From Flavobacteriaceae bacterium (GTDB lineage: Bacteria; Bacteroidota; Bacteroidia; Flavobacteriales; Flavobacteriaceae): DNA of 40,762 bases. The DNA lies in the NCBI GenBank assembly GCA_024643385.1, contig JAHEMZ010000019.1, positions 1-40,762 on the forward strand, in the 5' to 3' direction. The notes below the pieces were generated by a model that searched no databases, had not been told where the DNA came from, and saw only the letters and a program-made list of their open reading frames with translations. The first letter of the stretch is position 1. Each line of letters starts with the position of its first letter. Shown in pieces: positions 2-1,893 of this stretch. The translations under genes were made by a program, and so were the position numbers.

Positions 2-1273
2 TTATCGCGTTGTCAAATATTTGATTTTAAGCGTATTACAGTTAGCGATATCAAAGAACAGTTATCCGACGTGGCGGCTGCGGAAGGAATTACTGCGGAA
101 GATGATGCCTTGCACATTATAGCACAAAAGGCAGACGGTGCTATGCGTGACGCCCTGTCAATTTTCGATCGGGTGGTAAGTTTTTCAGGAAAGAATTTGA
201 CGCGCATTGCCGTGACAGAAAACCTGAACGTACTGGATTATACTTACTATTTTGAGATCACCCGCTTGTTATTGGAAAATGATATTCCAAAGGTGTTAAT
301 GTCCTACGACGAAATTTTATCCAAAGGCTTTGACGGACACCATTTTATTTCCGGTCTCGCGTCACACTTCCGTGATTTATTAGTCTGTCACAATCAGGAT
401 ACCATTGCACTGTTAGAGGTTGGGGATCAAGTGAAGGAAATGTATTTAAAACAATCCAAAGAAGCACCTCAAGAATTTCTATTTGAAGCGATAGAACTGG
501 CTAACGATTGTGATCTCAAATACAAGAATAGTCGCAATCAACGATTACTGGTAGAACTTTGTTTACTGCAATTGGCGTCATTGACCTTTGCTTCTGAAAA
601 AAAAAAGTCCACTAAAGACCGTTTTGTAATTCCCCCCTCCCATTTTGCGGTTTCCCCGTTAAACCAAGTAAAAAAAGAGCCTGAAGCAGCCCCTGTTGAA
701 TTACCAGTAGCCGTAGAGTTACCTGTGGCAGAAGAAGTGATTACCGCAGTAGAGGAAACCTCTGAAACGACCAAAGTATATGAACGGCCTCAAATATTGG
801 CCGAACGAAATGCACAAAGAGTTTCGGCCTTATCGATGAAAAGCATTCAGAAGAAACACGAAATTAAAAAGGAATTGATTGCTCAACAGCCTTCCGCTGA
901 AGAATTACCTGTTGAAGATTTTACCGAAGGAGCTATGCTGTTGGCTTGGGAGGCCTATACGCAAAAGATCGAAAGTTTGGGTAAATTTAATATGCATTCA
1001 CACCTTACGATGGGAATTCCACGTCTCGAGGGAAATTTAATTCATCTGATATTTCCTAACGACACCATAAAAGTAGAGGTAGAAAGAGAAAAACACGAAT
1101 TATTGGATCATTTGCGTTCAACACTTAGCAATTATGAAATCGACCTCTCTATTGAGGTAGTTGAAAGTGAGATCAAACGATATGCCTATACCGCCAGAGA
1201 AAAATTTGAAAAATTAAAAGAAAAAAATCCTTTGATAGAAGCATTGAGGAAAGAATTTGATCTGGATGTTTAA
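2..1273 (+). CDS. dnaX: DNA polymerase III subunit gamma/tau, C-terminal part (5' truncated by window edge)
   Basis: The reading frame is open from base 2 to a TAA stop. It begins in the clamp-loader ATPase with LSRCQIFDFKRI, a signature of DnaX, followed by the conserved helical stretch ending ADGAMRDALSIFD. The GTG at position 71 lies inside the protein and is not a start. After the collar-like domain III (ending about position 590) comes a charged, low-complexity linker rich in K, E, P and V, then a folded C-terminal region to the stop, as in tau. DnaX oligomerises with HolA/HolB-type subunits to load the sliding clamp, and tau links the loader to the polymerase. A run of ten A at 597-606 and a run of seven A at 670-676 sit at the domain III/linker junction and may permit synthesis of a shorter gamma form. 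A MiaE-like gene follows after 11 bases. Confidence 0.95.
   Translation, partial: LSRCQIFDFKRITVSDIKEQLSDVAAAEGITAEDDALHIIAQKADGAMRDALSIFDRVVSFSGKNLTRIAVTENLNVLDYTYYFEITRLLLENDIPKVLMSYDEILSKGFDGHHFISGLASHFRDLLVCHNQDTIALLEVGDQVKEMYLKQSKEAPQEFLFEAIELANDCDLKYKNSRNQRLLVELCLLQLASLTFASEKKKSTKDRFVIPPSHFAVSPLNQVKKEPEAAPVELPVAVELPVAEEVITAVEETSETTKVYERPQILAERNAQRVSALSMKSIQKKHEIKKELIAQQPSAEELPVEDFTEGAMLLAWEAYTQKIESLGKFNMHSHLTMGIPRLEGNLIHLIFPNDTIKVEVEREKHELLDHLRSTLSNYEIDLSIEVVESEIKRYAYTAREKFEKLKEKNPLIEALRKEFDLDV
597..615 (+). promoter_or_regulatory. Candidate frameshift/slippage site in dnaX (A10 run with immediate -1 stop)
   Basis: Ten consecutive A bases (597-606) are followed by G. In the dnaX frame this reads GAA AAA AAA AAG, containing the heptamer A AAA AAG in the same phase as the E. 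coli dnaX slippery site. In the -1 frame translation continues GTC CAC TAA, stopping at 613-615. In the +1 frame it stops about eight codons later. The site lies just after domain III, where known gamma subunits end. No convincing upstream Shine-Dalgarno stimulator or strong downstream hairpin was seen, so transcriptional slippage is an equally good mechanism. Function is inferred. Confidence 0.55.
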
Positions 1274-1284
1274 ATTGTAAGATA

Positions 1285-1893
1285 ATGGAAGATAAAAAGG
1301 AACATATTAAAATGCTCGGACTTAAATTACCTACCGATCCACGTTGGGTAAACATTGTTGAGAAGAACATAGATGAGATCTTAACAGACCATGCCTATTG
1401 TGAGCAAAAAGCTGCGTCTACAGCTATATCCCTTATTATTGGATACCCTGAATACAAGGAATTGGTGAGTGAAATGACCTTGTTGGCTCAAGAAGAAATG
1501 AGTCATTTTAAAATGGTCCACGACCGGATTCTCGAAAGAGGTGAACATTTAGGCAGAGAGCGAAAAGATGCCTACGTGAACAAATTAAGAACCTATTTCC
1601 CTAAAGGCGGCAGTCGTAATACACATCTGATTCAGAAATTACTTTACGCTGCTTTGATTGAAGCACGCAGCTGTGAGCGATTCCGATTGTTAAGCGAAGA
1701 ATTAAAAGACAAGGAACTCGCCGATTTCTATCGAAAGTTGATGATCAGTGAGGCTAATCATTATACAATGTTCTTAAGTTTTGCTCGTCAGTACGGAAAT
1801 CGCGAAGAAGTTGACCAGATGTGGCAAGGACTACTTGCGTTTGAAGCTGAAATAATGAAGGATCTAGGCAAAGAAGAAACTGTCCATGGTTAG
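1285..1893 (+). CDS. miaE: tRNA-(ms2io6A)-hydroxylase, MiaE family
   Basis: A 202-residue diiron ferritin-like protein. Visible diiron ligands follow the family pattern: E in DHAYCEQKAA, the ExxH of EEMSHF, E in EARSCERFRLL, and the second ExxH in SEANHY. MiaE hydroxylates the isopentenyl group of 2-methylthio-N6-isopentenyladenosine at position 37 of tRNAs. The first ATG gives nine extra residues; the ATG at 1312 (MLGLKLPTDPRW) is where many family members begin and could be the true start. It is 11 bases downstream of dnaX and probably co-transcribed. Its stop overlaps the stop of the convergent ppx gene by four bases, so no terminator separates the two. Confidence 0.88.
   Translation: MEDKKEHIKMLGLKLPTDPRWVNIVEKNIDEILTDHAYCEQKAASTAISLIIGYPEYKELVSEMTLLAQEEMSHFKMVHDRILERGEHLGRERKDAYVNKLRTYFPKGGSRNTHLIQKLLYAALIEARSCERFRLLSEELKDKELADFYRKLMISEANHYTMFLSFARQYGNREEVDQMWQGLLAFEAEIMKDLGKEETVHG

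Follow-up and report, generated by a model that had tools for sequence, protein, structure and literature searches.

Two products of dnaX, the gene of a clamp-loader subunit in DNA replication, are the longer tau and the shorter gamma, and both are known from systems that read a run of A's in different ways. The Thermus gene makes gamma by slippage on nine consecutive A's (A9) that are followed by stops in both other frames (PMC1088944, PMC5009743), and in Thermus thermophilus this slippage is transcriptional according to the account of Larsen et al. 2000 given in those two papers. In E. coli, gamma arises by -1 ribosomal frameshifting at the heptamer A_AAA_AAG. The main text of Antonov et al. 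2013 (PMC3711429) lists 17 dnaX genes with two ORFs, taken from 12 genera. All are of the -1 type, nine have 10 A's, and transcriptional realignment is proposed for this GeneTack cluster; no +1 layout, in-frame class or switching between layouts is described in that main text. A dnaX gene with tau in frame would be invisible to searches for frame transitions. Beyond the 2013 GeneTack paper and reviews, our search found no literature on dnaX slippage in flavobacteria or other Bacteroidota, and no paper on a Bacteroidota-wide conservation of the run, on a +1 layout or on frame switching.

The window analysed here, a stretch of 40.8 kb from a member of the Flavobacteriaceae with a GC content of 39%, opens within a dnaX gene (Table 1). 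The fragment matches NF011531, the Bacteroidota-type DnaX model of NCBIfam, over residues 1-423 (E 5.5e-113), and the missing N-terminal residues 1-158 were found at the end of another contig (G000:C4). The Pfam match for domain III (E 0.00015, 22.0 bits) lies just under the gathering cut-off of 24.4. It ends at fragment residue 200 and the A10 run encodes residues 199-202 in a Lys-rich linker, placing the run just past domain III as the initial annotation had claimed. Tau is predicted to be about 578 residues long. The predicted gamma would have about 359 residues and the tail EKKKVH if one A is added, or about 363 residues and the tail EKKSPLKTVL if one A is lost; the gamma proteins of E. 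coli and Thermus extend further beyond domain III than this. A gene for a MiaE-family tRNA hydroxylase (1285-1893, plus strand) starts 11 nt past the dnaX stop and, beyond it on the other strand, there are genes for Ppx/GppA, polyphosphate kinase, a histidine phosphatase and pyridoxamine-phosphate oxidase.

Table 1. Features of the dnaX locus in the window (positions from the first letter of the window).
Feature	Positions	Strand	Basis or conservation
tau-form dnaX frame, truncated 5' by the contig start	2..1273	+	NCBIfam NF011531
Clamp-loader domain III	212..601	+	Pfam DNA_pol3_gamma3, fragment residues 71-200
A10 run, putative slippage site	597..606	+	conserved in 113/115 family genera; 1188-fold enriched
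Predicted gamma stop (TAA) for a -1 shift or an extra A (...EKKKVH)	613..615	+	
Predicted gamma stop (TAA) for a +1 shift or a missing A (...EKKSPLKTVL)	625..627	+	
Tau-specific C-terminal region, predicted to be absent from gamma	860..1270	+	conservation across 67 aligned loci (frame 0, -1 or +1)

The run consists of exactly ten A's, and the zero frame reads GAA (596-598) AAA AAA AAG (605-607) TCC with the heptamer A_AAA_AAG in phase. Reading on in the -1 frame gives GTC CAC TAA, which adds only V-H before the stop, and the +1 frame gives S-P-L-K-T-V-L and then TAA. The initial annotation had described the in-phase run, a -1 shift ending after two codons and an end of the +1 shift within about eight codons, and the sequence bears out all of these. 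No other run of nine or more A's or T's occurs in the window. Pattern searches of the 2.68-Mb host genome found ten distinct A/T runs of at least 10, and only the one in dnaX is made of coding-strand A's within a gene body.

Among the closest known arrangements, that of Thermus thermophilus likewise has an A-run, tau in frame and nearby stops in both other frames; gamma comes from slipped mRNAs there and is predicted to do so here. Unlike the A9 run of Thermus, the source gene carries A10 directly past domain III, and the run is found across the Bacteroidota, where relatives move tau between frames. The two-ORF genes of the GeneTack cluster, as the main text of PMC3711429 presents them, share the A10 run but have gamma in frame 0 and tau out of frame, whereas tau is in frame in the source gene. 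With E. coli the locus shares the gene, the in-phase A_AAA_AAG and a predicted gamma plus tau outcome. It differs in having neither a hairpin nor a Shine-Dalgarno stimulator at the run, in that the heptamer is not conserved in relatives and in that stops are selected in two frames rather than one.

To examine conservation of the run, we compared dnaX across 115 Flavobacteriaceae genera, each represented by a single genome, together with 80 named relatives and with loci of further families within the order, the class and the phylum. Nine or more consecutive A's lie directly past domain III in 113 of the 115 genera, in all 80 relatives and in 112 of 126 loci of other families, counts that come from related genomes and do not represent independent events. 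Run length peaks at 10 A's across the sampled loci, and the encoded residues change with the phase of the run (EKKN, EKKK, LKKK, KKKT). The run also occurs in other Bacteroidota classes, including dnaX loci at 57-64% GC (L420-L423), and it is absent from a number of GC-rich lineages. A long A-run is thus kept at the same place in dnaX across most of the sampled Bacteroidota. The comparison of related genera that had been proposed as a check of the slippage idea found both the run and its stops conserved, the latter in 90 of 90 in-frame genera; a lack of conservation, which the initial annotation had named as part of a refutation, is clearly excluded. Genomes of endosymbiont size with a degenerate tau were excluded from most statistics. 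In these genomes, of about 0.3 and 0.6 Mb (L382 and L383-L393), dnaX is shrunken, the tau region is short or lost and the run is often missing; L390 and L393 keep an A11 followed by an early stop, and dnaX of L382 ends at domain III.

The frame of tau relative to gamma could be scored in 343 of 350 loci. Tau lies in frame 0, -1 or +1 in 269, 66 and 8 of them, respectively; gamma is the zero-frame product in the 74 loci where tau is out of frame, and tau therefore needs a shift there. All 75 split genes that carry the run have the same design: a stop ends the gamma frame in no more than 7 codons and the third frame in no more than 15, and the tau frame is open. One genus has a split gene in each of its 17 sampled genomes, and the out-of-frame tau domain there is free of stops with a dN/dS of about 0.10, which points to purifying selection and thus to production of tau. 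A length of 10 is preferred in split (58/80) and in-frame (222/278) genes alike, which argues against plain run-length errors as the source of the split genes. A tree built from the domain III region requires no fewer than 46 transitions between the three layouts, of which 18 fall inside the family sample; this three-state count is approximate because the tree is short (about 155 residues). A single genus, g122, contains both an in-frame member (L222) and a +1 member (L219). Five of the 80 split genes have no A-run of nine or more: two of these carry a ribosomal signal, a third has A8, and the other two have no evident explanation. The loci L189 (G020) and L335 (G497) have a split dnaX with an intact -1-frame tau domain, no A-run of nine or more and no hairpin.

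One alternative is that gamma is made by programmed -1 ribosomal frameshifting of the E. coli type at A_AAA_AAG while transcription is faithful. If so, the heptamer should be present in one constant phase, a stimulator (hairpin or Shine-Dalgarno) should accompany it and only the -1 frame should carry a stop, whereas transcriptional slippage predicts a run of about nine or more in any phase, without stimulators and with stops in both other frames. The source gene itself offers the ribosomal reading an in-phase heptamer with a -1 stop two codons on. In the wider sample, however, only 60 of the 265 in-frame loci have an in-phase A_AAA_AAG, most having A_AAA_AAT or AAC, and the in-frame loci carry the run in all three phases, such that length is conserved and phase is variable. 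The initial annotation stressed the heptamer, but conservation falls instead on the ~10-A run and on close stops in the two other frames. No stimulatory hairpin was found at 607-666 of the window (MFE -6.0, z -1.2) and no Shine-Dalgarno stimulator was found upstream of its run; over the 265 loci, the 60 nt downstream fold no more strongly than control windows (-7.29 vs -7.32 kcal/mol, p 0.41), and Shine-Dalgarno-like sites occur in 10 loci compared with 5-11 in upstream control windows, which is no excess. The stops are selected in the +1 frame as strongly as in the -1 frame. All 90 in-frame genera have a stop within 15 codons in both other frames, where synonymous shuffling predicts 36 +/- 4; by locus the figure is 260 of 265, compared with 111-138 at control positions. 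Taken singly, the -1 frame and the +1 frame are each closed in all 90 genera, with 45.6 +/- 4.0 expected for the latter. The Ile codon ATA, which hides a TAA in ATA ATT, makes up 50% of Ile codons just past the run and 26% elsewhere in dnaX, consistent with selection for hidden stops in both frames. Most out-of-frame tau regions are in -1 (66 vs 8 in +1), a bias that ribosomal shifting would also give but that insertion of one A explains equally well, and -1 frameshifting cannot serve the eight +1 genomes. Moreover, ten A's are kept although six or seven would suffice for a ribosomal shift. Signals of the E. coli kind do occur in relatives, as two genera of family f7 (L274, L275) have a split dnaX without A10 in which A_AAA_AAG is followed by TAG and then by a hairpin, of 14 bp in L274 (z -5.0, far stronger than shuffles) and 11 bp in L275 (z -1.3); these would make tau by -1 frameshifting. 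Taken as the general explanation, ribosomal frameshifting therefore appears unlikely to us. In the source genome, where the E. coli heptamer is by coincidence in phase, ribosomal slipping could contribute.

Two further readings were weighed. In the first, the run arose by accident where an AT-rich linker encodes many Lys residues, with full-length tau as the only product, and the Lys-rich linker and the 39% GC of the window would fit this. Runs of A10 or longer are, however, 1188-fold commoner at the dnaX site than in the rest of the same loci (1.19 Mb), and GC-rich loci have the run as well. AAA accounts for 76% of the Lys codons elsewhere in the sampled dnaX genes, so that two given Lys codons would both be AAA in ~200 of 342 loci; the run is observed in 325, and Lys codon choice was rejected as its cause on this ground. 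A chance run is ruled out by this enrichment and codon-usage test, and the stops selected in both other frames also speak against it, while the split genes with tau under purifying selection refute tau-only expression for the clade; we regard an accident as highly improbable. The second holds that in-frame and split genes are length variants of a single homopolymer, generated by phase variation at the DNA level or by miscalled bases. Homopolymers mutate and are miscalled readily, and some of the assemblies are fragmented. Yet most split genes have the same A10 (58/80) and it is the flanking sequence that changes frame, single-contig genomes are also split, and the genus with 17 of 17 sampled members split, together with the shared length of 10, led us to reject sequencing error and phase variation. 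Phase variation is moreover improbable for an essential replication gene. Tract variation seems the least likely of these readings, marginally less likely than coding accident.

We conclude that the dnaX A10 very probably serves for programmed transcriptional slippage like that in Thermus dnaX, which would yield both gamma and tau. The suggestion in the initial annotation that slippage produces gamma from the tau gene has gained strong comparative support from the run, the stops and the split genes, which favour the transcriptional version. RNA polymerase would add or drop A's on the run and so create a mixed mRNA population. Messages with a run length that keeps the frame (10, 13 and so on) would give full-length tau, and the remaining messages would terminate after a few codons, whichever of the other frames they enter, and give gamma, containing domains I-III only. 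One extra A would produce the tail ...EKKKVH and one lost A the tail ...EKKSPLKTVL. With such a mixture the genomic frame past the run would hardly matter, which would explain why tau is found in frame 0, -1 or +1 among relatives and moves from one frame to another. We infer both the polymerase slippage on the run and the gamma:tau ratio from these comparisons. A broader version, which we consider on balance probable though clearly less secure, treats the ~10-A run across Bacteroidota as an ancient co-transcriptional switch that works in any frame and controls the gamma:tau ratio. On this view slippage supplies all three frames and so leaves the genomic tau frame free to drift, with some 40 switches to date, and in some lineages hairpin-driven ribosomal frameshifting has taken the place of the run.

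The region that gamma would lack was also examined. The Bacteroidota tau C-terminal region had no match to a Pfam family. The best folds for its structural model (pLDDT 80) were those of DnaA domain I, at Z 9.0, and of DciA, a helicase loader, at Z 7.3, suggestive of a resemblance of the modelled region to the KH-like folds of these replication proteins, while Foldseek matches were not significant (E 0.04 or worse). E. coli tau domain V was not among the fold-search matches, which does not exclude it.

The two-ORF A10 form of dnaX was already reported in 2013 for a few genomes; the new part is the near-phylum-wide conservation of the run irrespective of frame. As judged from these genomes, the result would extend the known Thermus-type kind to most of a phylum rather than constitute a new kind. 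Annotation pipelines may label many such essential dnaX genes as truncated or frameshifted. The group offers many cultivable species for tests and a clean prediction in the form of two different gamma tails. The need for gamma in bacteria has long been disputed, and a two-product layout kept almost phylum-wide, with tau dependent on a shift in about one-fifth of the sampled loci, argues that both proteins matter.
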